A DNA stretch of 64,000 nt, taken from Bradyrhizobium sp. CCGUVB1N3 (GTDB lineage Bacteria; Pseudomonadota; Alphaproteobacteria; Rhizobiales; Xanthobacteraceae). The stretch covers positions 8,993,501-9,057,500 of the forward strand of contig NZ_JANADR010000001.1 in the NCBI RefSeq assembly GCF_024199925.1, written 5' to 3'. The notes beneath the pieces are model-generated. The model searched no databases and was not told the origin of the DNA. It was given only the letters and a program-made list of their open reading frames with translations. The translations under genes were made by a program, and so were the position numbers. Shown here one piece after another: positions 43,984-64,000 of this stretch; the first letter of the stretch is position 1, and each line of letters begins with the position of its first letter.

Positions 43984-46299
43984 TCACGATTCCAACTGCT
44001 TGCCGATCGGAAGTGAGCGGATGCGCTTGCCGGTCGCGGCGAAGATCGCGTTGATCAGCGCCGGCGCGAATGGCGGCACGCCAGGCTCGCCGACGCCGCT
44101 CGGCGGCGTGTCAGGCCCGGGCGGCACGATATGGACGTTGGTCAGCAGCGGAGATTCGTCCATCCGGATCACCGGGAAGTCGTCATAGTTCCTCTGCTGG
44201 ACCTTGCCGTCCCTGAAGGTGATCTCGCCATATTTGGCGAGGCTCAGGCCCATGATTGCAGCGCCCTCGATCTGCGACTGGATGCGCTCGGGATTGACGA
44301 AGGTTCCGCAGTCGATGGCGGTATCGACCCGCGGGATCGTGAGTTTCCCCTTGTCGTCGACGGCCACTTCCACGATCGTCGCGATGTAGCTGACGAAGCT
44401 GCGGTGCGCGGCGATGCCGAGACCGTGGCCCTTCGGCACCTGGCGGCCCCATTCGCCCTTCTCGGCCACAAGCTCGACCACCTTGCGCAGGCGCGCAGTG
44501 TCGATCGGGTAGCTGTCATAGGGCTCGCCATAGTTCCAGAGGTCCTTCACCGAAGCGAGCTTGACGATGCGGGGCGAGCCGATCAGCTCGAGCAGCATGT
44601 CCTTCTGGTCGCGGCCGGTGGCTTGCGCGATCTCGCCGACCATCGACTGCACGGCGAAGGCGCGCGGGATGTTGGAGACCGAGCGGAACCAGCCGATCCG
44701 GGTATGGGCGGCCGCTTCCGGATTCTCGCAGGAGATGTTGGCGATCTCGAAGGGCATGTCGACGAGGCCCATGCCGAGCTCGAACGAGGCCTGATGCACG
44801 GTTCCCGCCGCAAAGGTCGAGACGATGCTGGGGGCGACGCTGCGGTGGCGCCAGGCGATCACCTTGCCGCTCTTGTCGAGACCCGCTTCGATGCGCTCGA
44901 CCGAGACGGTGTGCAGGAAGCCGTTGTGGATGTCGTCCTCGCGCGTCCACTGCACCTTCACGGGCGCGCCGAGCTCCTTGGAGAGCAGGGCGGCCTCGAG
45001 CGCGTAGTCGCATTTCGACTTGCGGCCAAAACCGCCGCCGAGCAGCGTGACGTTCACGGTGACGTTCTGCTCGGGGATGCCGAGCGTCTTGGCGACGTCT
45101 TCGCGGGTGCCGCCCGGGCTTTGCACCGGCGCCCAGATCTCCGCCTTGTCGCCCTTGACGTCGGCAACCGCCACCGGCGGCTCCATGCTGACATGGGCGA
45201 GGTGAGGGATGTAGTACTCGCCGACGATCACCTTGTCGGCGCTTTTGAGCGCGGCATCCGCATCGCCCTCCTTGCGCACGACGAGCCCCGGCTTGCGCGC
45301 GGCCTCCTCGAGCTCCTTGCGGTAGGCAACCGACTCGTACTTGCCGTTCGGACCGTCGTCCCAGACGATCTTCAGCGCATCGCGGCCCTTGATCGCCGCA
45401 CCCGTATTGCGGGCGATCACGGCCACGCCGCCGAGCGGCTGGAATTTCGAGGGCCACGGCCAGCCGCGCACCTGCATCACCTTCTCGACGCCCGAGACCT
45501 TCATCGCATCGGCTGGGTCGAACGAGACCAGCTTGCCGCCGGTCACCGGCGGGCGCGCGATGACGGCGTATTTCATGCCGGGCAGCCGCACGTCGGCGCC
45601 GTAGCCAGCCTTCCCCGTGGTGATGTCGTGCAGGTCGACGATGCTGATCTGGCCCTTGGTGAGATAACGGAAATCCTTGGGGTCCTTCAGCTTGAGGCTG
45701 CCAACGCTCGGCACGGATTCCTTGCCTGCGTCGGCTGCGAGCTCGCCAAAGCCGAGCTTGCGTCCGCTCGCGCTGTGAACGACCTCGTGATTGACCGCCT
45801 TCACTTCGGTCGCCGGCACGCCCCAACGCTTGGCGGCGGCCTGCTCCAGCATGATGCGCGCCGAGGCGCCGATCTGGCGCATCGGGATCAGATAGTGCCG
45901 CGTGCTGCGGGAGCCGTCGGTGTCCTGGTTGCCGAACTTGACCTCGTCGCCGTGGGCCTGCTGGACCTTGACCCTCGACCAGTCGGCCTCCATCTCCTCG
46001 GCCACGATCAGCGGCAGGCTGGTGCGCACGCCGGTGCCCATCTCGGAGCGGTGCGCGACGATGGTGACGATGCCGTCGGATGCGACCGCGACGAACACGC
46101 GCGGGTCGACCACGACACCGTGTGGCATCTTCCCGGCGCCGGTCTCGTAGGCGAATGCCTGGCGCGACATCACGGGCGCGGCGAGCACGAAGCCGCCGGT
46201 GACGCCCAGTCCCTTCAGGATGCTGCGGCGGGAAACTTTCGCGATCCTGACATGCTTCTCGAAGCCACGAAGCTTCCTTGGGTTGTCGATGAAATTCAT
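43984..46299 (-). CDS. Exported molybdopterin-binding subunit of aldehyde oxidase (IorB-like)
   Basis: The ATG at 46299 ([18 protein letters not shown]) is preferred over the GTG at 46305; the product is about 771 residues. A twin-arginine signal ([21 protein letters not shown]) sends it to the periplasm folded. Molybdopterin-subunit marks include [11 protein letters not shown] and the catalytic Glu in [11 protein letters not shown] about 33 residues from the end. It belongs to the isoquinoline 1-oxidoreductase beta / periplasmic aldehyde dehydrogenase group. With the small iron-sulfur subunit just upstream it forms a two-subunit enzyme without FAD that passes electrons to a cytochrome. Next to PQQ alcohol dehydrogenases, oxidation of the aldehyde product is a natural role. 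Confidence 0.9.
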
Positions 46300-46301
46300 G
46301 A

Positions 46302-46754
46302 TCACACCCCCGTCGATGCGAGATGGACGGCGTTCTCGATGCGCTGGTAGCAGCCGCAGCGGCAGATGTTGCCCGCCATCGCCTCGCGGATCTGGTCATG
46401 TGACGGTTTTGGATTGTCCATCAGCAGCGCCGCCGCCTGCATGATCTGGCCGGCCTGGCAGAAGCCGCATTGGGGAACGTTGACCTGGCGCCACGCCTTC
46501 TGCACGGGATGATCGCCGTTCGGATGCAGGCCTTCGATGGTCGTGACCTCGCGGCCCGCAACGTCATTGACCGAAGTGATGCAGGCGCGCACGGCTTCCT
46601 TGTCGACGATGACGGTGCAGGCGCCGCACAGCGCCTGGCCGCAGCCGAATTTGGTGCCGGTCAGCCCGACCTCGTCGCGGAGAAACCAGAGCAGCGGAAG
46701 ATCCGGGTCGCCATCCCAGCTTTGTTCCTGGCCGTTGATTTTTGTCTTGATCAT
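46302..46754 (-). CDS. [2Fe-2S] subunit of the aldehyde oxidase (IorA-like)
   Basis: A 150-residue protein with the plant-type ferredoxin cluster ([13 protein letters not shown]) and the second cluster ([10 protein letters not shown] and CRCGCYQRI). This is the usual small subunit of two-subunit periplasmic molybdenum hydroxylases. It has no signal of its own and is presumably carried through the Tat system with the large subunit. Its stop is directly adjacent to the start of the large-subunit gene. Confidence 0.93.
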
Positions 46755-47399: not shown

Positions 47400-47963
47400 T
47401 TACGCAGCCTTGGCCTTCGCGACATGTGTCGCGATCGCGTCCATCAGTGCCGGCGACAGACAGTCATAGGGCTCGAGCCCGATTTCCTTCAGCCGCGAAC
47501 GGATGCCGGCCATCTGCTCCGGCTTCACGCCCGATTCGATCACCGAGGAGACGAAGGCGGCAAATTGCGGTGCCTGCGAGCCCTGCTCCTGGAACAGCTC
47601 GGGATGGATGAAGTCGAGGCCGTAGAACGGGTGGCCCTTGTTCTCGATGCGGCCGTACATGTGCGTGCCGCAGGCCTTGCAGGCGTAGCGCTGGATCACC
47701 GCCGAGGGGTCGACGATCTGCAGCTTGTCGCCGTTCTCGAGCACGGAGACGTTCTGGCGCGGCACCACGGCGACGACGGAGAACGTCGCGCCCTGCGGCT
47801 TCCAGCACTTGGTGCAGCCGCAGGCGTGGTTGTGCGCCACGTCGCCCTTGATACCGACCTTGACCGCGTGGTCCTTGCATTTGCAGGCCAGCGTGCCGCC
47901 GGCAAAGCTGCCGCTGCCGTGTTTGAGGCCATTGTCGATCGAGGGATGGAGAGCAACAGTCAT
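47400..47963 (-). CDS. gfa: S-(hydroxymethyl)glutathione synthase (glutathione-dependent formaldehyde-activating enzyme)
   Basis: Gfa helps glutathione condense with formaldehyde to S-hydroxymethylglutathione. The 187-residue product has the expected length. The two zinc sites of the Gfa fold are visible as CKCKDH, CGCTKC and CKACGTH. It is the last gene of the xoxF-xoxG-flhA-gfa operon, 33 bp after flhA, and hands its product to FlhA. Confidence 0.95.
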
Positions 47964-47996: not shown

Positions 47997-49106
47997 TTAG
48001 TAGACGACGACCGAGCGGATCGATTTGCCCTCGTGCATCAGGTCGAAGCCCTTGTTGATGTCTTCGAGCTTCAGCACGTGGGTGATCATGGGATCGATCT
48101 GGATCTTTCCGTTCATGTACCAGTCGACGATCTTGGGCACGTCGGTGCGGCCGCGCGCGCCGCCGAACGCGGTGCCTCTCCAGTTGCGCCCGGTGACGAG
48201 CTGGAACGGACGTGTGGCGATCTCCTTGCCGGCTTCCGCAACACCGATGATGATCGAGGTTCCCCAGCCACGATGACAGCATTCCAGGGCCTGGCGCATC
48301 ACCGTGGTGTTGCCGGTACAGTCGAAGGTGTAGTCGGCGCCGCCATCGGTCAGCGTCACCAGATGCTGGACGATGTCGCCGGTCACCTTCTTGGGGTTGA
48401 CGAAGTGCGTCATGCCGAACCTGCGGCCCCAATCCTCCTTGGAGTCGTTGATGTCGACGCCGATGATCTTGTCGGCGCCGGCCATCTTGGCGCCCTGGAT
48501 GACGTTGAGACCGATGCCGCCGAGACCGAACACCACGACGTTGGAGCCCGGCGTGACCTTGGCGGTGTTGACGACGGCGCCGACGCCGGTCGTGACACCG
48601 CAGCCGATGTAGCAGCTCTTGTCGAAGGGGGCATCCTCGCGGATCTTGGCGACCGCGATCTCCGGCAGCACCGTGAAGTTCGAGAAGGTCGAGCAGCCCA
48701 TGTAGTGATAGATCGGCTTACCCTTGTAGGAGAAGCGGCTGGTGCCGTCCGGCATCACGCCCTTGCCTTGCGTCGCGCGGATCGCGGTACAGAGGTTGGT
48801 CTTCCCGCTCAGGCAGCTTTTGCACTGCCGGCATTCAGGCGTGTAGAGCGGGATGACGTGATCGCCAGGCTTCACCGAGGTCACGCCTGCGCCGATCTCG
48901 CGGATGATGCCGGCGCCCTCGTGGCCGAGGATGGAGGGGAAGATTCCTTCGCTGTCGAAACCGTCGAGCGTGTAGGCGTCGGTGTGGCAGATTCCGGTTG
49001 CCTTGATCTCGACCAGAACTTCGCCGGCCTTCGGTCCTTCCAGATCGACCTCGACGATTTCAAGCGGTTTTTTCGCTTCGAAAGCGACCGCGGCACGTGT
49101 CTTCAT
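47997..49106 (-). CDS. flhA: S-(hydroxymethyl)glutathione dehydrogenase / class III alcohol dehydrogenase
   Basis: A 369-residue zinc-dependent medium-chain dehydrogenase. Catalytic zinc ligands are in [14 protein letters not shown] and [13 protein letters not shown]; the structural zinc site is the four-Cys block [15 protein letters not shown]. The NAD site is [11 protein letters not shown]. It oxidises S-hydroxymethylglutathione to S-formylglutathione. Its place right after xoxG supports formaldehyde oxidation downstream of methanol dehydrogenase. Confidence 0.96.
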
Positions 49107-49169: not shown

Positions 49170-49691
49170 TCATTTCCTGCCCATACAGGAGTCTTCGGCC
49201 TTGGTGTAGGCCTCCATCTTGTCCTCATGCTTGCCCGGTCGCGCGCGGCCCCAGGCTTCGTTGGAACGGGCGCGCAGATAGACATAGAGATCGTCCATGT
49301 AGCAGGCCACGTTCGGATTATCGCCGAAGGCCGGCATCACGTTCTCCTGCGCCGTCGAGATGTTTTTGCGGCCGGAGGCAACGACGCCGAGGAAGTCGGC
49401 GTAATTCATCGTCTTCAGCGAGTCCTTCAATGCCGGCGCGTAGGTGGATCCCATTCCGTCGGGGCCATGACAGACGTGGCAGTCCGAGTGATAGCGCCGG
49501 TAGCCGGAATAGGTGTACCAGTCCACGTTGCCGTCGGCCGAAATCTTGTAGGTCGGGTTTCCTTCCTTATCGAGCCACTCACCATTTTCATTTTGCTTGA
49601 CGGCAGTCGGATCGTCCGAGCCGTCTGCGAACGCAATTCCACCGGACGCGACGAAGATCATCGCAGCTATGACAGAGCAGATTCTACGCAA
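49170..49691 (-). CDS. xoxG: Cytochrome c XoxG (electron acceptor of XoxF)
   Basis: A 173-residue c-type cytochrome with signal peptide (MRRICSVIAAMIFVASGGIAF). The haem motif CHVCH is at 71-75, and the axial Met is probably in ENVMPAFGDNP. The position between xoxF and flhA and the YDW/YRRYHSDC context match XoxG, which accepts electrons from XoxF and is tuned to lanthanide enzymes. The start codon is a TTG at 49691, behind GAGGAAAA; the next in-frame ATG would remove half the signal peptide. Confidence 0.92.
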   Translation of the reverse strand: MRRICSVIAAMIFVASGGIAFADGSDDPTAVKQNENGEWLDKEGNPTYKISADGNVDWYTYSGYRRYHSDCHVCHGPDGMGSTYAPALKDSLKTMNYADFLGVVASGRKNISTAQENVMPAFGDNPNVACYMDDLYVYLRARSNEAWGRARPGKHEDKMEAYTKAEDSCMGRK

Positions 49692-49771: not shown

Positions 49772-51574
49772 CTAGTTCGGCAGCGAGAACACGGTCAGCG
49801 TACCGCCGAGTGCCGTGTAGTTGCTGAGCGCCGCATAGCCACCGACTGCACCGAGACCGGCGGTCGGATCGGTCAGGCCTGCCGCCAGACCGATGCCGGC
49901 CCAGCCGCCCACGCCGGAGAGCACTGCGACGTACTGCTTGCCGCCGTTCTCATAGGTCGTGACGTTGCCGATGATGCCGGAAGGAGTCTTGAACTTGTAG
50001 AGCTCCTTGCCGGTCTTGGCGTCGACCGCCTTCAGGTAGCCTTCGAGCGTGCCGTAGAACACCACGCCGCCGGCGGTTGCGAGCGCACCCGACCAGACCG
50101 AGAACTGCTCCTTGTTCGACCACACGATCTTGCCGGTCTTGCCGTCCCAGGCGATGAAGTTGCCCATGTGGGTCTCGCCTTGCGGCGGATACATCGAGAG
50201 CGTCGCGCCCACATAGGGCTGGCCCGCGGTGTAGCTGACCTTGAACGGTTCGTAGTCCATGCAGACGTGGTTGGTCGGAACGTAGAACAGCTGCGTATCC
50301 GGCGAGTAGGCTGCCGGCTGCTCGTCCTTGCTGCCGAGCGCGGCCGGGCAGATACCCTTGGTGTTGTGATCCTCTCCGCCCTTCTCGGTGGAAGCAGCAT
50401 CGAGAACCTTCGGACGGCCATAGGTCGGCGAGTTCTTGTCCATGTCGACGCCGGAGGTCCAGTTCACCTTCGGATCGTACTTCTCGGCGACCAGCAGCTC
50501 GCCCGATTCACGGTCCAGCGTGTAGCCGAGACCGTTGCGGTCGAAGTGGGTGAGCAGCTTGCGCGCCTGACCATTGATCGCCTGGTCGGAGAGGATCATC
50601 TCGTTGATGCCGTCATAGTCCCACTCGTCGTGGGGCGTCATCTGGTAGACCCACTTGGCGACTCCGGTGTCGGGATTGCGGGCCCAGATCGTCATCGACC
50701 ACTTGTTGTCGCCCGGACGCTGCTTCGGGTTCCAGGTCGACGGGTTGCCGGAGCCGTAATAGACGAGGTTCAGAGCAGGATCATAGGAGATCCAGCCCCA
50801 GGTGGCTCCGCCGCCGATCTTCCATTGATCGCCTTGCCAGGTCTTGAGGCTGGAGTCCTTGCCGATCGGCTTGCCGAGAGCTGTGGTCTTGTCGTCAACC
50901 AGGATCTGATCATCCGGCCCTTCCGAGTACCCTCGCCAGGCCAGCTTGCCCGTCTTGATGTCGTAGGCGGTCATATGGGCTTGAACGCCAAACTCACCGC
51001 CGGAGATGCCGATCAGCACCTTGTCCTTGACGACCATCGGCGCCGAGGTGCCTGTCTCGCCCTTGGTGGGATCGCCGTTCTTCGCACTCCAGGCGACTTG
51101 ACCGGTCTTGGCATCGAGCGCGACGAGCGTGGTGTCGGCTTGATGAAGGAAGATCTTGCCGTCGCCGTAGGCCAAGCCGCGGTTAACCGTGTCGCAGCAC
51201 ATCACCGGGATGACGTTCGGATCCTGCTTCGGCTCGTACTTCCAGACGATCTTGTTCTCGTTCGAAAGGTCAATGGCGTAGACCTTGTTCGGGAACGGCG
51301 TGTGGACGTACATCATGTTGCCGATGACCAGCGGCCCGCCTTCATGGCCGCGCAGCACGCCGGTCGAGAAGGTCCAGGCGACCTGAAGCTTGCCGACATT
51401 TTGTGCGTTGATCTGGTTCAACTTGGAATAGCGGCTGTTGGCATAATCGCCAGTCGGCATCACCCAGTCTTTCGGGTTCTGCACCATCTTGATCAGTTCG
51501 TCGTTGGCTGAAGCGCTGCCGACGGCGAGAGCCGCCGCGGAGCCGAGAAAGGTCGCCAGTAGTGCCTTGCGCAT
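49772..51574 (-). CDS. xoxF: Lanthanide-dependent methanol dehydrogenase XoxF
   Basis: Of two ATGs after the AGGAGG, the one at 51574 has the better 7-nt spacing (600 residues; signal cut near SASA). The vicinal cysteines are Cys126-Cys127 ([10 protein letters not shown]). The metal and catalytic residues are Glu194 (GGEFG), Asn277 (GSGN), Asp319 and Asp321 (EWDYDGINE). Asp321 is the extra Ln ligand absent in calcium MxaF. It oxidises methanol to formaldehyde (or formate) in the periplasm. No mxaF, mxaI or mxaG is present in the window. It leads the operon with xoxG, flhA and gfa. Confidence 0.97.
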
Positions 51575-51766
51575 AGTCATTCCTCCTAGGTCTCGTTTAT
51601 TGTTTCCGAAGCATTGCGTATCGCTGGGCACTGGGGTCCAGCGTCTGCTCGTGCAGGGCGGTCACGATTGGGACCAGAAACGATGCTGTGCTGTTTCCTC
51701 CTCCTGGATATGAGCCACAGGTCCGCTTTCAGGTGCGGCCCGTTTCTTGTTGTTCCTGGCACAATC

Positions 51767-52063: not shown

Positions 52064-52076
52064 AGTGGCTGGGATC

Positions 52077-53045
52077 ATGTCCGACACAATACATACGCTC
52101 AGCACGACCGGACTCACGCCGAAGAGGCAGATCCAGAGCTGGGTCGACGGGCTGACAAGTCTCTGTGGACATTTCGACGTCGATCCGCTGGAAGCGACCG
52201 CGCTCGAAGGCCGCATCGACTACACCACGGTATCGCGCCTGAAACTCTGCCAGATCGAGGTGAGCCAGCATCGCATCGCGCACACGCATGCGCGCGCGAA
52301 GGCCAACGAGCACCCCTACATCAAGATTCATTTCCAGACCTACGGCATCTCCTATTTCGAGCAGGAAGGCCGTCACATCGAGTTGATGCCCGGCGACATC
52401 ATCGCCTATGACGTGTCCTGTCCGCACTCGATCATCAGCCCCGCCTTCACGCGGCACGACGTGGTGATCGTGCCGAAGGCCCTGCTGCGCGATCGGGGCT
52501 TCCCGTCCCAGCGGATGCCGGCCTGCAAGCTGACCGCGCGCACCGGCACCGGGCGAATCGCCCACGACTTCGTCCACGCCACTTTCGACGAGGCCGCCAA
52601 ACTGTCGGCGAACAGCGCGGTCGGCGTCGCCGATTCGCTGATCGACCTGTTGTTGCTGCCTCTGCGCGAGGCCGACACGATGTTCGATCGGGTCGGCCCC
52701 GAGGCGATGTATGTGCGTGCCCAATTTTTCATCCGCGAGCACCTGCGTGATCCGGACTTGTGCATCGACCAGATTTCCGCCGAGCTCGGTTGCTCCAAGC
52801 GTTATCTGCACATGCTGTTCAGCGAACGCGGCACGACGGTGAGCGACTACATCTGGCAGGCACGCCTTCAGAACTGCCGCCAGGAGCTCGAGGCCCACGC
52901 CGGAAAAACCATCACCGACGTCGCCTTCTCCTGGGGCTTCTCGAGCTCGTCACATTTCAGCCGTGTGTTCCGCAAGTATTTCGGCGTCGTGCCGTCGTCG
53001 ATCCACAAGGCGCAGCAGAACGCCGTTTCCTCTGAAGAGCACTAG
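52077..53045 (+). CDS. AraC-family transcriptional regulator divergent from xoxF
   Basis: A 322-residue regulator from the ATG at 52077. The N-terminal effector half has an AraC_binding_2-like stretch (HTHARAKANEHPYIKIHFQ, PGDIIAYDVSCPHS). The C-terminal part has the two helix-turn-helix motifs of AraC/XylS (LCIDQISAELGCSKRYLHMLF and TITDVAFSWGFSSSSHFSRVFRKYFG as two helices). Divergence from xoxF makes it a candidate regulator of methanol or alcohol oxidation genes, although the known XoxF regulators are usually two-component systems. The effector is unknown. Confidence 0.9.
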   Translation: MSDTIHTLSTTGLTPKRQIQSWVDGLTSLCGHFDVDPLEATALEGRIDYTTVSRLKLCQIEVSQHRIAHTHARAKANEHPYIKIHFQTYGISYFEQEGRHIELMPGDIIAYDVSCPHSIISPAFTRHDVVIVPKALLRDRGFPSQRMPACKLTARTGTGRIAHDFVHATFDEAAKLSANSAVGVADSLIDLLLLPLREADTMFDRVGPEAMYVRAQFFIREHLRDPDLCIDQISAELGCSKRYLHMLFSERGTTVSDYIWQARLQNCRQELEAHAGKTITDVAFSWGFSSSSHFSRVFRKYFGVVPSSIHKAQQNAVSSEEH

Positions 53046-54283: not shown

Positions 54284-55210
54284 TCACCGCTGGATGATCT
54301 GCTTCCAGACGTCGCCGAGGATCGCCGGCTCGCGTGGCGGCAGGTAGGTGAGCCCGGCCCGCTTGCCGAGCTCGGCTATCTTACCTTCTGCCATGAGCTC
54401 GGTGAGCGCCTTGTCGACGGCGGTGATCAGGGCGGGATCGCTGGCAAGCCCGACATAGCCGCGATTGGCGCCGATCGGATAATAATAGCCGGACGCGGTG
54501 ATCGCGGTGTCGGGATGGGCGGCACGGTGGGCGTCGTAGCGGGCGAGATCGAGCAGTGTCGCATCATAGTCGCCGCGGTCGAGCGCGCCCAGGAGGTCGT
54601 CACGGCCGGGAACGAGATGCGTGATGCCGTCGATCAGCCGCCCCTTGTCGTAGGTCATCAGGATGGCATCGCCGAGCGATCCGCTTTCGATGGCGAGACG
54701 CAGACCCGCGAGATCACCGATATCGGCGATCTTGCGGTCGCGCGCCTTCGGACCGAGCACGACCGTCATCGGCGAATAGATGTAGGGCTGGCTCGGCGCG
54801 AGCACGCCGAGCGCGACGCGGCGCCTGCGGTCGTCGCGGGTCGCGCCGTCGAAATCCGGAAGCCTTGCGGTCTTCATGCCGGGGACGACGAGGGAATCGC
54901 GGGTCAGTGCGTAGCTGCCCACCAGCGCGCAGCGTCCGTCCGACAGCAGCGCGTTGGCTTCGAGCTGCGGGCTCGAATCTTCATCCAGCTTGCTTTCGAA
55001 CCACTGGATCTGGAGCGGCCGGTCGAGCCGTTGTGCGATCGCCTCCGCCAGCGTCACGTCGAACCCTGCGCCCGGCTTGCCACGGTGATGCACGGACAGC
55101 GGCGGCCGGTCCTCATCGAGGCATATTCGCAACGGATCGGCTGCATCGGCGACTGTTGCGAGAGCCGCAAGCATCGCGGCAAGGCCGAACGCCCCAAGCC
55201 GAAGTCTCAT
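54284..55210 (-). CDS. Quinoprotein-associated periplasmic binding protein (XoxJ/MoxJ-like)
   Basis: The ATG at 55210 (MRLRLGAFGLAAMLAAL) gives 308 residues with a signal peptide ending in ADAA. It is an SBP_bac_3-type protein (LRICLDEDRPPLSV, GAGFDVTLAEAIAQRL). It lacks associated permease and ATPase genes. Proteins of this type encoded with PQQ dehydrogenases (MxaJ, XoxJ and relatives) are thought to help activate or load the dehydrogenase rather than import a solute. Its start overlaps the stop of the cytochrome c gene (ATGA), linking it to the PQQ dehydrogenase-cytochrome operon. Confidence 0.88.
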   Translation of the reverse strand: MRLRLGAFGLAAMLAALATVADAADPLRICLDEDRPPLSVHHRGKPGAGFDVTLAEAIAQRLDRPLQIQWFESKLDEDSSPQLEANALLSDGRCALVGSYALTRDSLVVPGMKTARLPDFDGATRDDRRRRVALGVLAPSQPYIYSPMTVVLGPKARDRKIADIGDLAGLRLAIESGSLGDAILMTYDKGRLIDGITHLVPGRDDLLGALDRGDYDATLLDLARYDAHRAAHPDTAITASGYYYPIGANRGYVGLASDPALITAVDKALTELMAEGKIAELGKRAGLTYLPPREPAILGDVWKQIIQR

Positions 55211-55563
55211 GGCCGTCTCCGGCTCGAAATGTAGGCCCAGAGATCGGTGATCTCGTCCTCGCTGAGGATGTCGCCCCATGGCGGCATCTTGTTGTTTTTG
55301 CCGTTCTTCACCGTGGTGACGAAACGCGTCTTGTCGTCGGGGAAGGCGCGCAGGTCCGGCGTAATGGTGCCGGAGCTCATCATGCCGGGACCGTGGCAAT
55401 GCGAGCATTTTTCGGCGTAGGTCGCCTTGCCGTGGTCGACCTGCGCCTGCACGGGGTTGCCATTCGGTTCATCCGCGGCGCGGGCGGTCGCTACGGACGC
55501 AACCGCCAGCCCCGCGACGGCAGCGAATGTCGCCGCCGTCCTGATCAAAGTGTCTTTCAGCAC
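55207..55563 (-). CDS. Small exported cytochrome c
   Basis: A GTG at 55563 gives 118 residues starting with a good signal peptide (TLIRTAATFAAVAGLAVASV). The haem motif CSHCH is followed by GPGMM, and the axial Met is likely in KMPPWGDILSEDEI. It lies 13 bp after the PQQ dehydrogenase gene and shares ATGA with the binding-protein gene. It is the natural electron acceptor of that dehydrogenase, as cytochrome c550 is for ExaA. The frame is open further upstream into the dehydrogenase gene, but only this start gives a signal peptide. Confidence 0.88.
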   Translation of the reverse strand: MLKDTLIRTAATFAAVAGLAVASVATARAADEPNGNPVQAQVDHGKATYAEKCSHCHGPGMMSSGTITPDLRAFPDDKTRFVTTVKNGKNNKMPPWGDILSEDEITDLWAYISSRRRP

Positions 55564-55576
55564 ATCGAACCCGTGG

Positions 55577-57241
55577 TCATTGCTTGATCGCGAAAACCCA
55601 CAGGGAGCCGCCGGGCGGCACCTTGGCGAGCCGCTCGTCGCCGGAGAACAGCGAGTAGACGCCGCCATAGCCGCTGGCCACCGCGACATACTGCACGCCG
55701 TCCTGCTGCCAGGTCACCGGCTGTCCCTCGATGCCGGAGCCGGTCTGGAACTGCCAGAGCTTCTTGCCGGTGTCGGCGTCGAAGGCTTCGAACTCACCGG
55801 TCAGCGCGCCCGAGAACACGACGCCGCCCGCGGTCGACAAGACGCCCGAGAAGCGCGGGATGTCGCTCGCCGCTTCCCACTTCGACTTGCCGGTCAAGGG
55901 ATCGATCGCCTTGAGATGGCCGCGCGGTCCGTCGCCGAACTCCCAGGGATCGGTGAGGTCCATGCCGAGATACCATTCACCCTGCTTGAAGGTGACCGGC
56001 TCGGCCTTGTACTTGCCGCCGAAGTTGAGCGTGTTGGCATAGGCAAGGCCGGTCTGCGGATTGAACGACATCGGCTCCCAGTTCTTGCCGCCGAGAATCG
56101 ACGGATAGACCGTGACCTTCTTGCCCTCGCGCGCATCCTTCGCAACATCGGTCTCGATCGGCCTGCCGGTCTTCATGTCGACGCCGGTCGCCCAGTTGAC
56201 CTTCACGTACGGGTTGGCGGCGAGCAGCTTGCCGTTGGTGCGATCGAGCACGTAGAAGAAGCCGTTCCGGTTGGCGTCCATCAGCACCTTGGTCGGCTTG
56301 CCCTCGACGTTCATGTCGGCGAGCACCATTTCGGCGACCGAGTCGTAGTCGAACGGATTGTTCGGCGAGAACTGGTAGTGCCACTTGATCTTGCCGGTCT
56401 TGGGATCCATCGCCAGCACCGAGCAGGTGTAGAGGTTGTCGCCCGGGCGTACCGCCGAGTTGAACGGGCCTGGATTGCCGATGCCCCAATAGACCGTGTT
56501 CAGCTCCGGATCGTAGGAGCCGGTGATCCAGGTCGAGCCGCCGCCGAGCTTCCAGGTATCGCCCTTCCAGGTGTCGCCACCCGGCTCGTCCGGAGAGGGG
56601 ATCGAATGGGTGCGCCAGAGGTGCTTGCCCGTCGCGGGATCCCAGCCGTCGATGAAGCCGCGGGTGCCGAACTCGGCGCCGGAGATGCCGGTGATGACGA
56701 CGCCGTCGGCCACCAGCGGGGCCACCGTCATCGAATAGCCTTCCTTGATGTCGGCGGCCTTCTCGCGCCACAGCTCCTTGCCGGTCTTGGCATCGAGCGC
56801 AATCACATTGGCGTCGAGCGTGGTGCGGAACACCTTGCCGTCGTACAAGGCCGCGCCGCGATTGATGATGCCGCAGCAGACGATACGCGGTGTTTCCGCG
56901 GGGTACTCGACCTTGGTCTTCCAGATCTGCTTGCCGGTTTTGGCGTCGACCGCCATCGTGGCATTGTGCGAGGTCACGTAGATCACGCCCTGGTACACCA
57001 GCGGCTGCGATTCCTCGCTGCGATCGTCGTTGAAGCTGTAGTTCCAGACCGGGACGAGATTCTTGACGGTGTCCTTGTTGATCTGATTCAGCGTCGAGAA
57101 ACGCTGAAGATTGTAGCCCATGCCGTAATTGAGAACATTTGATGTGTCGGTCGCACCCTTGACGAGCTGTTCGGTCGTCTGGGCACCTGCACCCGTCGAC
57201 GCAAGCATGACGAGGCTCGCGGCCATCGCAAAGCGTTTCAT
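55577..57241 (-). CDS. PQQ-dependent methanol/ethanol dehydrogenase (ExaA/PedH-like), lanthanide-type
   Basis: The ATG at 57241 follows GGGAGGAACGG and gives 554 residues with a signal peptide (cut near GAGA). Vicinal cysteines are Cys122-Cys123 (IVCCGIINRG). Metal and active-site residues are Glu190 (GAEFG), Asn256 (GIGN), Asp298 and Asp300 (PFDYDSVAE); the second Asp marks a lanthanide-using enzyme such as PedH. The substrate is probably ethanol or another primary alcohol. It starts the operon with the cytochrome c and binding-protein genes and diverges from lanM. Confidence 0.93.
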   Translation of the reverse strand: MKRFAMAASLVMLASTGAGAQTTEQLVKGATDTSNVLNYGMGYNLQRFSTLNQINKDTVKNLVPVWNYSFNDDRSEESQPLVYQGVIYVTSHNATMAVDAKTGKQIWKTKVEYPAETPRIVCCGIINRGAALYDGKVFRTTLDANVIALDAKTGKELWREKAADIKEGYSMTVAPLVADGVVITGISGAEFGTRGFIDGWDPATGKHLWRTHSIPSPDEPGGDTWKGDTWKLGGGSTWITGSYDPELNTVYWGIGNPGPFNSAVRPGDNLYTCSVLAMDPKTGKIKWHYQFSPNNPFDYDSVAEMVLADMNVEGKPTKVLMDANRNGFFYVLDRTNGKLLAANPYVKVNWATGVDMKTGRPIETDVAKDAREGKKVTVYPSILGGKNWEPMSFNPQTGLAYANTLNFGGKYKAEPVTFKQGEWYLGMDLTDPWEFGDGPRGHLKAIDPLTGKSKWEAASDIPRFSGVLSTAGGVVFSGALTGEFEAFDADTGKKLWQFQTGSGIEGQPVTWQQDGVQYVAVASGYGGVYSLFSGDERLAKVPPGGSLWVFAIKQ

Positions 57242-57561
57242 CCGTTCCTCCCAATGTGCGCGCCTTTTGACGCTGCGATCGCAACACTCCGATGGAACGC
57301 AAAATGCGTCAATACGAAAGTCGTAAACTCGCTGCTGAATTGTTGGACGTCGGATGCCAGTTACCCCTGGTAAACTGCTCGTCGTTTCGCACTGCATGCA
57401 AGAACGCTGGCGAGAAATTCCGCGGCATGAAGATTGCCCCGCCATGCGTTGCCAGCTTTGCGTGTGCACCACGAGGCGCGTAGACTTCGAACCAGGGTCC
57501 CGGCTGGCAACTTGTTTCGATCCCATGGGCGCGCCGGGACGCCCGAGCCGGGAGGTTTTCG
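57242..57561. other. Divergent promoter region between the PQQ dehydrogenase and lanM
   Basis: A 320-bp gap with no gene. TACGA-AAG-TCGTA (57313-57325) is a small palindrome, and the overlapping CGTAAAC (57322-57328) is shared with the direct repeats upstream of xoxF. No good -35/-10 pair stands out. Confidence 0.45.
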
Positions 57562-57954
57562 ATGATATCGCGTCGCTCCATTGCATTCGCAGTTGCAGGC
57601 ACATTGCTCGGCGGTCCCGTCTGGTCGGCATCCCCAAATGCCATCAAGATGTTCGACACGGACAATGATGGCACGCTCGATCTTGCCGAGGTGAAGAAGG
57701 CCGCGACCGCGGTGTTCGCCAAGCTCGATCCAGATCATGACGGCACGCTCGACGCGCGTGAGCTGCGCGGACGGTTGACCGCAAAGGAACTCGCAGCCGC
57801 CGATCCGGATCACGATGGAACGCTGACGCTGGACGAATATCTCGCCGTCGTGGAGCAGCGTTTCAACGCGGCCAATCCTGACAAAGATGGAACGCTCGAC
57901 GCCAAGGAACTGAGGTCGCCCGCAGGACGCGCCCTGCTGCGGCTGCTCAAATGA
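57562..57954 (+). CDS. lanM: Lanmodulin-like four-EF-hand periplasmic lanthanide-binding protein
   Basis: A 130-residue protein with GGGAGG before the ATG and a signal peptide (MISRRSIAFAVAGTLLGGP, cut near WSA). Four EF-hand loops are at 32-43, 56-67, 81-92 and 105-116. Successive loops are separated by only 12-13 residues, far less than in calmodulin. Loops 2, 3 and 4 have Pro at position 2 (DPDHDG, DPDHDG, NPDKDG), the lanmodulin hallmark; loop 1 has Thr (DTDNDG). Loop 4 begins with Asn, as in Methylorubrum extorquens lanmodulin, and the C-terminal ELxSPAGxAL tail also matches. It would bind lanthanides with very high affinity in the periplasm. It diverges from a Ln-type PQQ dehydrogenase. 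Confidence 0.93.
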   Translation: MISRRSIAFAVAGTLLGGPVWSASPNAIKMFDTDNDGTLDLAEVKKAATAVFAKLDPDHDGTLDARELRGRLTAKELAAADPDHDGTLTLDEYLAVVEQRFNAANPDKDGTLDAKELRSPAGRALLRLLK

Positions 57955-58396: not shown

Positions 58397-58720
58397 ATGA
58401 ACACCAAACGTCTGATTTTGACCGCATGCTCCATCCTAGTCTTGAGCGTCGGCAGTGCGATGGCAGGTCCCTGCAACACCGGCAGCGCGACCACCGACAA
58501 GGATGCAGGCTCGGGTCCTGTGACCGTCGGCTCGGCGCAGTCGCACGGTTCTGCAAATGATGTGAGTCAGCATCCGCCGACCAGCACGATGAATCGCGCC
58601 AGCGGTGAGACGGCTGCGTCGTCGGAAGATGCGCAGCGGCAGATGCAGAGCCAGCCGACGGCGGCACAGCGCGCGGAAGGCGCAAAGGCCAATCCGCAAG
58701 CAGCAGACAAGGGATGTTAA
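58397..58720 (+). CDS. Small exported Ser/Thr/Gln-rich hypothetical protein
   Basis: The ATG at 58397 follows AGGAGAGGAG. The 107-residue product has a signal peptide (MNTKRLILTACSILVLSVG, cut near AMAG). The mature part is polar and low in complexity, with CNTGSATTDKDAGSG at the start and a final Cys. It is likely a disordered periplasmic or surface protein. Function unknown. It lies between the lanM region and pqqA. Confidence 0.7.
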   Translation: MNTKRLILTACSILVLSVGSAMAGPCNTGSATTDKDAGSGPVTVGSAQSHGSANDVSQHPPTSTMNRASGETAASSEDAQRQMQSQPTAAQRAEGAKANPQAADKGC

Positions 58721-58986: not shown

Positions 58987-59067
58987 ATGGCTTGGAAAGC
59001 TCCGAAGATCGTGGAAGTGTCGGTCGGCATGGAAATCAACATGTACGCCTGCGCTTCGCGCAAGTAG
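58987..59067 (+). CDS. pqqA: PqqA, precursor peptide of the PQQ cofactor
   Basis: A 26-codon gene behind TTGGGAG. The peptide begins MAWKAPKIVEVSVGMEINMY. Glu16 and Tyr20 form the E-x3-Y pair that PqqE cross-links to make PQQ, and the rest fits the family. pqqB, pqqC, pqqD and pqqE do not follow; an outer-membrane-like protein gene does. The gene is therefore a stand-alone copy here, supplying extra precursor to a PQQ pathway encoded elsewhere, in a region rich in PQQ enzymes. Confidence 0.92.
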   Translation: MAWKAPKIVEVSVGMEINMYACASRK

Positions 59068-59118: not shown

Positions 59119-59324
59119 TGGTAGTGTCAGAGAGCCCCCGAAGTTCTCCACGCGTGTCGAATTGAACGCTCCCCTTCCTGAAGTCGTCGTGGCCTGAAGC
59201 CACACCTGAGCCGGCTTCGACGATCACGCTCCAAAATCTCGACTCAACCACCGTCGCATTGTGTTACGCTGCTCTCGGTCAGCGCTGTTGCCGCTTTTGG
59301 AGCGGCGCGCGTGCGGGAGCGGGG

Positions 59325-60194
59325 ATGCGGCAGATTGCACACGGAGTTTTGATGGTCGTCGCATGCGGTATCGCGCTCGCGCCGTTCTGCACGCATGCCG
59401 AGGAGGGTTTTGATACCGAGCACATCTTCGGCTTCTTGATCGGATCGGATGTCGGCAATCCGGGCGAGCGCGAATTCCAGAGTCAGACGACGGGGCGGTT
59501 CGGCAGGGGCGGCGGGACCTATCGCGCGGTCGGTCAGGAAGTCGAGATCGAGGTGGTGCCGCTGCCGAACTTCCGCATCGAGATCGGCAGCAGCGTCGCG
59601 CTGCACGACATCACCGGCGTCCCCGATATCGCCGACCGCCGCCAGCTCAATTTCCAGGGGTTTTCGCTCGACCTGCGCTATCGCCTGCTCGATCGCGAGA
59701 CTGCGCCATTCGGGATGACCATCGCCGCGGAAAGCCACGGCGAGCGCATCGATGAAATGACGGGCGCGAAGGCGCGCAGCTACGGTACCGACTTCACCCT
59801 CGCATTCGATCGCGAGATCATCCCGAATTTCGCGATCGGCGCGCTCAACCTGATCTATCAGCCGGAGTGGACGCGGTTCGAGATTCCCGACATGTCCGAC
59901 AAGAGCTCCACCATCGGCGCGGGGGTCGCTGGCATGGTGCGCGTGCGTCCGAACATGCTGCTCGGCGGCGAGTTGCGCTATTTCAGGCAGTATGAGGGCA
60001 TCGGGCTCGGCGACCTCGCCGGCCAGGCGCTGTTCGTCGGCCCAACGGCCTATTTCCAGCTCTCCGAGCGCTCGCGCCTGACGGCGAGCTGGAGCACCCA
60101 GGTGTGGGGACGTCCTGCGGGGGCGAGCGCCAATCTCGACCTCGTCAATTTCGAGCGCCACCAGGCCCGATTGGTGTTCGGCGTCAATTTCTAG
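59325..60194 (+). CDS. Outer-membrane beta-barrel-like hypothetical protein
   Basis: The ATG at 59325, behind GGGAGCGGGG, gives 289 residues with a signal peptide (MRQIAHGVLMVVACGIALAP, cut near HAEE). The mature part has alternating polar/hydrophobic strands (RIEIGSSVALHDI, FSLDLRYRLLDR, SYGTDFTLAFDRE, MLLGGELRYFRQY) and ends in a terminal Phe (RLVFGVNF), a mark of barrels inserted by BamA. It looks like a medium-size outer-membrane barrel, not a TonB receptor (no plug). Function unknown. It follows pqqA but the hairpin after pqqA separates them. Confidence 0.75.
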   Translation: MRQIAHGVLMVVACGIALAPFCTHAEEGFDTEHIFGFLIGSDVGNPGEREFQSQTTGRFGRGGGTYRAVGQEVEIEVVPLPNFRIEIGSSVALHDITGVPDIADRRQLNFQGFSLDLRYRLLDRETAPFGMTIAAESHGERIDEMTGAKARSYGTDFTLAFDREIIPNFAIGALNLIYQPEWTRFEIPDMSDKSSTIGAGVAGMVRVRPNMLLGGELRYFRQYEGIGLGDLAGQALFVGPTAYFQLSERSRLTASWSTQVWGRPAGASANLDLVNFERHQARLVFGVNF

Positions 60195-60540: not shown

Positions 60541-60891
60541 CTATTTGGTGCAGTCCTTCAGGTCCTTGTCGGCGATCGAGAACACCGCGTCCGCCCTGAT
60601 CTCGATATCGCGCACGACGCAACTCCGCGCGTTGGGATAGCTGACCTTGGCGTCGTAGCGGCCGGGCTCGACGCCGGTGATGCGCAGCCGCTCGTCGTGG
60701 TCGACCTCCTTGTCCTTGTCGTTCAAGGTCTGGTTCGGTCCCCACTCGGTCTTGCCGGCGGGCGAGAGCTGGAAGCCGGAGATGGTCTCCGAGGTCAGAT
60801 TCCAGAGCCGGATGCCTTTGCCCTTGCTCTGCGCGGCAGCTTCGCCGGCACACGCCACCACCACGATCAAAGCCAGACACCAACGCATCAT
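60541..60891 (-). CDS. Small exported hypothetical protein, last gene after the pentapeptide protein
   Basis: The ATG at 60891, behind GAGGAG, gives 116 residues with a signal peptide (MMRWCLALIVVVACAGEAAA). The mature part has a single beta-sandwich look (IRLWNLTSETISGFQLSPAG, YDAKVSYPNARSCVVRDIEI) and two cysteines near the C-terminal half. It starts 20 bp after the pentapeptide-repeat gene, so the two are co-transcribed. Function unknown. Confidence 0.75.
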   Translation of the reverse strand: MMRWCLALIVVVACAGEAAAQSKGKGIRLWNLTSETISGFQLSPAGKTEWGPNQTLNDKDKEVDHDERLRITGVEPGRYDAKVSYPNARSCVVRDIEIRADAVFSIADKDLKDCTK

Positions 60892-61755: not shown

Positions 61756-62514
61756 CTACGAGACATCGCGCCCGGCGCGCTCGCCTTGCGTTCGCCGCAC
61801 GAGGCCGGCCTTGATCGCGGCGATCTCGGCCTCGCCGCGCGCGCCACGGGGGATGCCGATGGGCACCTCGGCCAGAATCCGCGCTGGCCGCGGCGACAGG
61901 AAGAACAGGCGGTCGCCGAGACGCACCGCATCATCCAGGCTGTGCGTGACCAGGAGCGTCATCACCGGCCGGCTTGCGACCAGCGTTGCGATCTCCTCGC
62001 GCAAGCGGCCGGCCAGCGCATCGTCGAGCGAGGCGAGGGGTTCGTCGAGCACCAGCAGGTCGGGCTCGACCGCGAAAGCGCGGGCGAGCGCGACGCGGCG
62101 GGCAAGCCCGAGCGACAATTCGCCGGGATAGTGGCTGCGATGGGCTTCCAGCTCGAGGATCTTGAACAGCTCGGAAAGCTTGACGTCGTCGACCTCGGGC
62201 GCTGCCAGCCGCACGTTCTGTTCGACCGAGCGCCACGGCAAAAGTCGCGGCTCCTGGAACACCATGCCGATGCGTGCGCTCGGCGGGCGCCTGATGTCGC
62301 CCCGAAAATCGTGGTCGAGACCCAGGATGATGCGCAGCATCGTGCTCTTGCCGCAGCCGGACGGGCCGACGAGGACACCGACCTCGCCGGCGCCGAGCGA
62401 GAACTTGACCGGCGCGAGCACCTCGTGGGTGCCGCCGGCCGCATTCGTGAAGGTCTTGCCTAAAATGTCGACTTCAAGCCGCACGGGGCCGCCACCGGGT
62501 TGAGCGGGTTTCAA
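61756..62514 (-). CDS. ABC transporter ATPase (SsuB/TauB/NrtD type)
   Basis: A 252-residue single-domain ATPase. Walker A is GPSGCGKST and Walker B is LLVLDEPLASLDD. The signature reads LSLGLARRVALARA rather than LSGGxxQR; the second Gly is replaced by Leu, as in some thiamine/aliphatic-sulfonate type members. The start is a TTG at 62514, overlapping the permease gene by 41 bp; a GTG at 62481 is an alternative and leaves an 8-bp overlap. It belongs to an importer with the permease and binding protein upstream. Confidence 0.9.
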   Translation of the reverse strand: MKPAQPGGGPVRLEVDILGKTFTNAAGGTHEVLAPVKFSLGAGEVGVLVGPSGCGKSTMLRIILGLDHDFRGDIRRPPSARIGMVFQEPRLLPWRSVEQNVRLAAPEVDDVKLSELFKILELEAHRSHYPGELSLGLARRVALARAFAVEPDLLVLDEPLASLDDALAGRLREEIATLVASRPVMTLLVTHSLDDAVRLGDRLFFLSPRPARILAEVPIGIPRGARGEAEIAAIKAGLVRRTQGERAGRDVS

Positions 62515-63211
62515 ACGGCTGCACCAGCAGGGTTTCGATGATGAGCACGACCGCCGCGAAGGTCAGCGAATAGGCGAGCAGGCGCGGGGTGTCGAAAAGC
62601 TGGAAGGCGACGCCGATCTCGAAACCGACGCCGTTCGGCCGTCCCAAGAGTTCGGCGACCAGCACGATCTTCCAGACCAGCGACAGGCCGGAGCGCGCGG
62701 CGGCGGCGACATAGGGCGCAAGCTGCGGCAGCACGACATGGCGGAAGGTGCGCCAGCGCGACATCGCAAACACCGTCGCCATCTCGTCCAGCGAGCGGTC
62801 GAGCGCGCGGGTGCCCTCGCGCAAAGTAACCACCGCGGTCGGCAGCTTGTTGATCGCGATCGCCGCGATTGCGGCCGCTTCCGTCAGTCCGGCCCAGATA
62901 TAGGCGAGCACGATCACGACCAGTGCCGGCAGGTTGAGCAGCAGGATCAACCAGGGATCGCCGAGGCGGTCGGCGAGCCTGTTGCGGCCCATGAGATAAC
63001 CGATTGCGCTGCCGAGCGACATCGCCAGCGCGAAGGCCAGCGTGACGCGCGCCAGCGTCGCGCCGAGATGCAGGAACAGCGCGCCGGAGGCGGCTTCCGC
63101 GATCATCACGTTGAGCACCGCAGGCGGCGAGGGCAGTTTCGCTCCGCCGACGAACAGCGCGGCGATCCACCAGATCGCGAGGAACAGCGCAAACGAGACG
63201 AGACGCAGCAA
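62474..63211 (-). CDS. ABC transporter permease (SsuC/TauC type)
   Basis: A 245-residue inner-membrane permease with five or six hydrophobic segments. The cytoplasmic coupling loop EMATVFAMSRWRTFRHVVLPQLAPY is the usual EAA motif. The start is TTG at 63211, two bases after the binding-protein stop, so translation is coupled. Confidence 0.9.
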   Translation of the reverse strand: MLRLVSFALFLAIWWIAALFVGGAKLPSPPAVLNVMIAEAASGALFLHLGATLARVTLAFALAMSLGSAIGYLMGRNRLADRLGDPWLILLLNLPALVVIVLAYIWAGLTEAAAIAAIAINKLPTAVVTLREGTRALDRSLDEMATVFAMSRWRTFRHVVLPQLAPYVAAAARSGLSLVWKIVLVAELLGRPNGVGFEIGVAFQLFDTPRLLAYSLTFAAVVLIIETLLVQPFETRSTRWRPRAA

Positions 63212-63213
63212 CG

Positions 63214-64000
63214 TCAGTCTCCGCCGGGTGCGTGATAGAAGGTGCCGGGATCGAGCTCCGGTGCGGGGCCGACCAGCTCGCGGCCGCCGACCTCGGCGAG
63301 CACGCGATAGAGCACCCGCGCATCGGCCTCTTCGTCGTCGATGCTCCGGTGCGGAATGCCCTCGCGATAGCGGTTGCGATAGGCCTGGAGCAGGGCAGGG
63401 TCACTGGTGCCGGTCAGCGGCGCGATCTTCTCCCAGGCGGCGTCCGAGGTCGTCAGCAGCTCCTTGGCCTTGCGCGACATCGTGATGAAACGCGCCACGA
63501 CGTCGCGGTGGCTCGCCGCCCAGTCTTCGTCGAAGACGTAACCGACCGCAGCGACCGGTCCCTTGGCCCCGAGCTTGGGCAAAATCTCCTCGATGCCGGC
63601 GAGGCGGCGAAAGCCCTTGGCTTCCAACTGGGCGCAGAAATTCCAGAAATTCAGGCTCGCATCCATCTCGCCGTCGAGCGCCTTGGCGGCAAGCAGCGGC
63701 GGGGCGCCATAGACGATGCTGGCGTCCGACTTGAGGTCGATGCCGTCCTGCTTCATCCGCGCCTGTAGCAGCAGCCAGCTCTTGTCGATGGCGCCGCCGG
63801 CGACGCCGAGCCTGCGGCCCTTGAGGTCCGCGAGCGTCTTGATCGGCGAAGAGGCCGGCACCATCACCGCGCCGAGCGCGCTGGAATAGGGATAGAAGGT
63901 CAGCTTGGCGCCGAGCGCGCGCTCGCGCGATACCCACAGCCAGTCCGACAGCATGATGTCGGCATTGCCCGCGCGCATCGCGATCTTGCCGGCTTCGGTG
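63214..64000 (-). CDS. ABC transporter substrate-binding protein (SsuA/TauA/THI5-like), 5' end beyond the window
   Basis: The frame is open past the window edge (the last codons read TEAGKIAM), so the N-terminus and signal peptide are missing. The visible 262 residues have the NMT1/SsuA type II binding fold: IMLSDWLWVSRERALG, TLADLKGRRLGVAGGAIDKSW and LDGEMDASLNFWNF. Such proteins bind taurine, sulfonates, nitrate or pyrimidine precursors; here the ligand is unknown. Given the neighbouring lanthanide-PQQ island, uptake of a metal-binding small molecule is a possible but unproved role. Confidence 0.88.
   Translation of the reverse strand, partial: TEAGKIAMRAGNADIMLSDWLWVSRERALGAKLTFYPYSSALGAVMVPASSPIKTLADLKGRRLGVAGGAIDKSWLLLQARMKQDGIDLKSDASIVYGAPPLLAAKALDGEMDASLNFWNFCAQLEAKGFRRLAGIEEILPKLGAKGPVAAVGYVFDEDWAASHRDVVARFITMSRKAKELLTTSDAAWEKIAPLTGTSDPALLQAYRNRYREGIPHRSIDDEEADARVLYRVLAEVGGRELVGPAPELDPGTFYHAPGGD

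Follow-up and report, generated by a model that had tools for sequence, protein, structure and literature searches.

The window, by which we mean the whole analysed stretch of 64,000 nucleotides from Bradyrhizobium sp. CCGUVB1N3, carries a putative lanmodulin gene (lanM) together with genes for two PQQ-dependent dehydrogenases, c-type cytochromes and the PQQ precursor peptide (Table 1). The original prediction had claimed a 130-residue ORF, its divergence from a PQQ dehydrogenase with lanthanide ligands and the vicinity of xoxF, xoxG and pqqA. All of this is found at the locus: the ORF starts with ATG on the plus strand, the dehydrogenase gene with its FDYD motif runs in the opposite direction at a distance of 320 bp, and the other three genes are recognized by the 6oc5 match, by TIGR03874 (XoxG by position) and by TIGR02107, respectively.

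Table 1. Genes and features of the lanM locus (positions within the window)
Feature	Position	Strand	Basis or remark
gfa, S-(hydroxymethyl)glutathione synthase	47400..47963	-	TIGR02820 346 bits, cut-off 234.55
S-(hydroxymethyl)glutathione dehydrogenase	47997..49106	-	TIGR02818 620 bits, cut-off 544
Methanol-metabolism c-type cytochrome, XoxG by position	49170..49691	-	TIGR03874 263 bits, cut-off 161.75
xoxF, lanthanide-dependent methanol dehydrogenase, WDYDG	49772..51580	-	6oc5 XoxF 1076 bits, best PDB match; start chosen inside a longer ORF
AraC/FeaR-like regulator divergent from xoxF	52065..53045	+	NF007243 179 bits, below cut-off 199
Family 3 solute-binding protein, XoxJ-like by position	54284..55408	-	PF00497; ORF as listed
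c-type cytochrome, CSHCH, true start probably internal	55207..55689	-	PF13442; ORF as listed
PedH-like PQQ alcohol dehydrogenase, 554 aa, FDYDS	55577..57241	-	TIGR03075 713 bits
Divergent intergenic region lanM/PQQ dehydrogenase, 320 bp	57242..57561		sequence
lanM, putative lanmodulin precursor, 130 aa plus stop, ATG	57562..57954	+	four EF-hands in the mature part
EF1 loop DTDNDGTLDLAE, Thr at position 2	57655..57690	+	loop start = residue 32
EF2 loop DPDHDGTLDARE	57727..57762	+	loop start = residue 56
EF3 loop DPDHDGTLTLDE, Thr at position 9	57802..57837	+	loop start = residue 81
EF4 loop NPDKDGTLDAKE	57874..57909	+	loop start = residue 105
pqqA, PQQ precursor peptide	58987..59067	+	TIGR02107 44.6 bits, cut-off 20

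With 181.4 bits to the LanM equivalog NF053806 of NCBIfam (cut-off 135), the resemblance of the protein to lanmodulins is far beyond chance. In the accessible text of PMC10232371 lanmodulins are defined by four EF-hands in fewer than 200 residues, a spacing of 12-13 residues between adjacent EF-hands and Pro2 in one or more of these. The protein has four loops within 130 residues, separated by spacers of 12, 13 and 12 residues, and Pro2 in three of them; spacing and prolines, as well as Asn1 in loop 4, are as originally predicted. Its predicted fold is the compact LanM fold. In the PDB sequence search Mex-LanM scores 121.5 bits versus 28.2 for the best centrin and 26.6 for calmodulin, and the closest similarity is therefore not to calmodulin-like calcium EF-hand proteins. 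An ordinary calcium-binding EF-hand protein which only resembles LanM might be suspected from the matches to generic EF-hand Pfam families and from an EF3 loop without Asp9, but bit scores and predicted fold led us to reject this identity, and we regard it as extremely improbable. The original prediction had proposed the profile comparison and had named a greater nearness to calcium EF-hand proteins as evidence against itself; neither profile, PDB search nor predicted fold gave such evidence. Sequence and modelled fold support the view that 57562..57954 encodes a genuine lanmodulin and not a calcium EF-hand protein.

The protein is an ordinary new member of a known family, common in Bradyrhizobium. 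The LanM profile finds a single match in the whole 10.4 Mb genome, with no second lanM found at E 0.001. Within the genus, the profile matches 217 of 265 genomes with E-values of at most 0.001, and in 200 of 265 the match exceeds the cut-off; the corresponding numbers over the cut-off are 52 of 296 and 29 of 397 genomes in the family and order samples, each of which includes some Bradyrhizobium genomes. The nearest named relatives are Bradyrhizobium proteins with up to 97% identity, the nearest with identical loops, and no notable difference from them was seen. Plasmid-borne LanMs of Bradyrhizobium are already in print, as far as the accessible part of PMC12482762 goes. Lanmodulin being well known, this single protein adds little, and the remaining interest lies in the Thr9 of EF3 and in the PedH-like partner.

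Mex-LanM from Methylorubrum extorquens AM1 (PDB 6mi5, 8fns) has Pro2 in all four loops, whereas EF1 has Thr2 here, and in the alignment its EF3 has Asp9 instead of the Thr9 found here. The LanM of Methylobacterium aquaticum 22A, described as changing its conformation on La binding, shares Thr2 in the first loop, but unlike the protein here has Lys2 in the second. Hans-LanM (8dq2, 8fnr) and the Ancylobacter chain 9pi2 match the protein with only 81.6 and 84.2 bits, and the pattern of Asn1 and Glu9 in EF1-3 of Hans-LanM does not occur here. 9pi2, matched by sequence, is in neither of the fold-match lists, and its absence there excludes nothing.

Thr2 in EF1 and Thr9 in EF3 are both present as originally claimed, but they are not peculiar to this LanM, as 89 and 121 of 122 distinct congeneric sequences, respectively, have them. 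The congeneric alignments mark them as lineage traits and rule out a peculiarity of this protein; likewise, the published 22A sequence, as far as the source is accessible, rules out that Thr2 in EF1 is new. Two sets of congeneric loci were counted. From 195 confirmed relatives, the best 80 make up the named loci, among which Thr2 is over-represented because one search word held the EF1 Thr2 motif. The 89 whole-genome loci (own locus included) come from lists headed by the best E-values and are not a random sample. Since both sets overlap in species, the pooled 169 loci were reduced to the 122 distinct mature sequences, in which position 2 of EF1 is T in 89, P in 29, S in 3 and L in 1, and position 9 of EF3 is T in 121 and S in 1. 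Counted separately, the whole-genome loci have T 58, P 28, S 2 and L 1 at the former position and T in 89/89 at the latter; for the 77 of 80 named loci passing a strict motif the numbers are T 64, P 12 and S 1, and T 76 and S 1. The strict motif left out three of 111 loci (L049, L076, L081), and the alignment-based counts keep every row. Outside the genus (51 loci) position 9 of EF3 is D in 36, T in 7, E in 6, N in 1 and S in 1, and position 2 of EF1 is P in 32, T in 12, K in 5, G in 1 and S in 1. Seven of these loci (L160, L211-L213, L218-L220) lie below the LanM cut-off; the 44 over it have D 35, T 7, N 1 and S 1 at position 9 of EF3, counted by eye. Judged from these sequences, Thr2 in EF1 is a common LanM variant and Thr9 in EF3 is close to fixed in the examined part of Bradyrhizobium. 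The Thr9 codon varies among the 169 congeneric loci (ACG 152, ACC 9, ACT 4, ACA 3, with one TCG), and the use of four Thr codons speaks for selection keeping Thr.

A paper on engineering the selectivity of LanM reportedly concerns position 9. Because D9 of Mex-LanM hydrogen-bonds metal-bound solvent (PMC10232371, accessible text), Thr9 could alter the EF3 site, which may be weaker or different without Asp9. We tentatively propose, while considering it rather unlikely, that the LanMs of Bradyrhizobium form a natural variant class in which the conserved Thr9 for Asp9 in EF3 changes the selectivity among rare earths or the rate of their release, in a way that suits the supply of the adjacent PedH-like enzyme, either in place of XoxF or alongside it. 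In the literature listings and text passages covered, which give weak evidence of absence, we found no report of Thr9 in EF3 of Bradyrhizobium and no study on the biochemistry of a Bradyrhizobium LanM. These proteins are a ready natural set for asking how the residue at position 9 influences the binding of rare earths and their separation.

The best PDB match of the PedH-like dehydrogenase is 6zcv (467 bits), which we take to be the lanthanide-dependent PedH of P. putida, and 1flg (440 bits), presumably a calcium enzyme, scores little less. Because this gap is small, the lanthanide label of the enzyme rests on the second Asp two residues past the catalytic Asp: where the enzyme has FDYDS (residue 297), the aligned sequences read WDFD in 6zcv and WDFS in 1flg. 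FDYD is kept in 72/72 aligned PedH-like orthologues, and WDYD in 65/65 XoxF proteins. The PedH-like gene is divergent from lanM at a distance of at most 2.5 kb in 72 of the 80 named loci, and xoxF lies within about 10 kb in 65 of 80, where some loci end early. A relative of the cytochrome at 55207..55689 is found in 72/80 and the gene for the family 3 solute-binding protein within 4 kb of lanM in 72/80; pqqA follows downstream of lanM both in the window and in 78/80, and the ORF at 58397 has a relative in 27/80. The genes of LanM and the PedH-like dehydrogenase may share regulation across the divergent intergenic region. Mex lanM, by the accessible description, sits in the lut cluster instead of beside a PedH-like dehydrogenase and pqqA, and for 22A the context of lanM is called functionally unrelated to lanthanide transport, unlike here.

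Among the matches listed, a PedH-like orthologue occurs in 57 of 64 lanM-containing versus 12 of 64 lanM-less genomes, and XoxF in 64 of 64 versus 48 of 64. PedH-like orthologues were counted at 86% identity or more (next best 46% or less) and XoxF at 77% or more; of the 48 lanM-less genomes with XoxF, two (G236, G174) have a partial match. The match lists are cut but sorted by E-value, and the orthologues occupy their top rows. The lanM-containing genomes were hand-picked, about every second of G001-G151, out of 200, while the lanM-less ones are all those without a LanM over the cut-off, minus G127; 28 of the latter were deduced from gaps in the numbering of the match list, and 53 of the 64 reach a completeness of 90% or more with no more than 5% contamination. 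Fisher tests on this co-occurrence ignore shared ancestry and physical linkage. In all 12 genomes with a PedH-like gene and no LanM over the cut-off, no lanM was found in the stretch fetched. In seven of them the PedH-like gene is more divergent (87-89%) and lacks the outer-membrane-type neighbour. In the other five (G028, G206, G243, G051, G152; L221-L225) the PedH-like gene and this neighbour are arranged as usual with no lanM between, apparently natural losses of lanM alone. Conversely, four of the seven lanM-containing genomes without a PedH-like orthologue were fetched, and in all four the distance from lanM to xoxF and the AraC-type gene is no more than about 6 kb; in three of them these genes are directly beside lanM. 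In two further lanM-containing genomes (G026, G100) the PedH-like gene and xoxF lie together and lanM elsewhere. These two and the 12 lanM-less genomes argue that a handover of metal is not obligatory and that adjacency is not general. Thus lanM is part of a lanthanide alcohol-oxidation locus and tied most to the PedH-like enzyme, without being bound to it and without being indispensable. As to the question which enzyme is the physiological client of LanM, this distribution points more sharply to the PedH-like dehydrogenase than to XoxF, and the lanM-less relatives are a comparison set for it.

In the same genome beyond the window, about 11-15 kb from lanM, four genes over the cut-offs of TIGR03861, 03863, 03864 and 03866 belong to a PQQ-alcohol-dehydrogenase ABC system, which by family names and the accessible published descriptions is probably related to lutA, B, E, F and pedA1A2BC. 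A TonB-dependent receptor gene is about 21 kb from lanM. This lut/ped-type ABC cluster lies at L240:5452-9342, with a gene for a MoxJ-like binding protein (TIGR03871) close by (L240:2879-3763).

Starting from the family, the gene order, the co-occurrence and the predicted fold, we favour, with a probability of roughly 0.85, a genuine lanmodulin which would be exported to the periplasm and would bind trivalent lanthanides in EF-hands 1-3, with EF4 weaker, folding into the compact LanM fold on binding. There it would act as a lanthanide buffer or shuttle and probably hand over metal to the PedH-like enzyme encoded next to it, a lanthanide-type PQQ alcohol dehydrogenase and in this genus its closest partner, XoxF and the lut/ped-type transporter presumably belonging to the same system. 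It is possible, though clearly less probable, that metal supply to the dehydrogenase is not the main role of the lanmodulin; as a sink, a store or a partner in uptake, it would instead protect the periplasm or feed the ABC transporter of the lut/ped type. This would agree with the ABC transporter and the TonB receptor within about 25 kb, and with the accessible text on M. aquaticum 22A, according to which lanM is dispensable for XoxF expression or metalation, its deletion causes no methanol growth defect and there is a response of a LutE-like protein when lanM is missing. It does not explain why lanM is tied tightest to the PedH-like gene, both physically (72/80 named loci) and in distribution. 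The 22A results also count against the favoured reading, as do the lanM-less relatives, the lack of Asp9 in EF3 and the statement, in the part of the report available, that LanM was not confidently detected in Methylosinus grown with cerium or ore.

Regarding export, the N-terminus of about residues 1-23 (57562-57630), judged by eye, resembles a signal peptide, with SRRS at residues 3-6, a motif shared by 131 of 169 congeneric loci. This motif, together with TRR or SRR in the more Tat-like LanM signals of several other genera of the family and with the lack of RR from the signals in the listed rows of f42, a group we guess to be Methylobacterium-like, could suggest that lanmodulin leaves the cytoplasm through the twin-arginine system already folded and loaded with metal, so carrying lanthanide to the periplasm. 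However, one Arg is lost in several congeners (SARS in 7, SRHS in 4, SCRS in 2 and others among the 169 loci), and the Tat motif also sets a rule for the residues following RR, by which those found here are weak. For P. putida PedH, with two adjacent arginines in its signal, the accessible text reports that Tat interference did not impair lanthanide-dependent growth. We therefore consider export of a metal-loaded LanM by this route very unlikely.

Several further genes accompany lanM. An exported-looking protein of 115 aa (60541-60888, minus strand), which matches no Pfam or NCBIfam family, is encoded near lanM in 75 of the 80 named loci and is a candidate for an unstudied part of the lanthanide locus. 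The genes of a sulfonate/taurine-type ABC transporter (ATPase, permease and binding protein; 61756-63978, minus strand), all below curated cut-offs, are near lanM in 74-75 of 80 loci, and a 311-aa protein (59259-60194, plus strand), by eye possibly an outer-membrane barrel and likewise matching no Pfam or NCBIfam family, is encoded there in 64 of 80. At 43984-46754 (minus strand) lie the genes of a two-subunit molybdopterin/iron-sulfur oxidoreductase of the aldehyde/xanthine dehydrogenase type, below all curated cut-offs listed. Bradyrhizobium mercantei has two different LanMs in one genome (L106, L107), and the lanM of L106 is found off the PedH-like locus, beside a same-direction PQQ dehydrogenase gene whose product is 40% identical to the PedH-like one.
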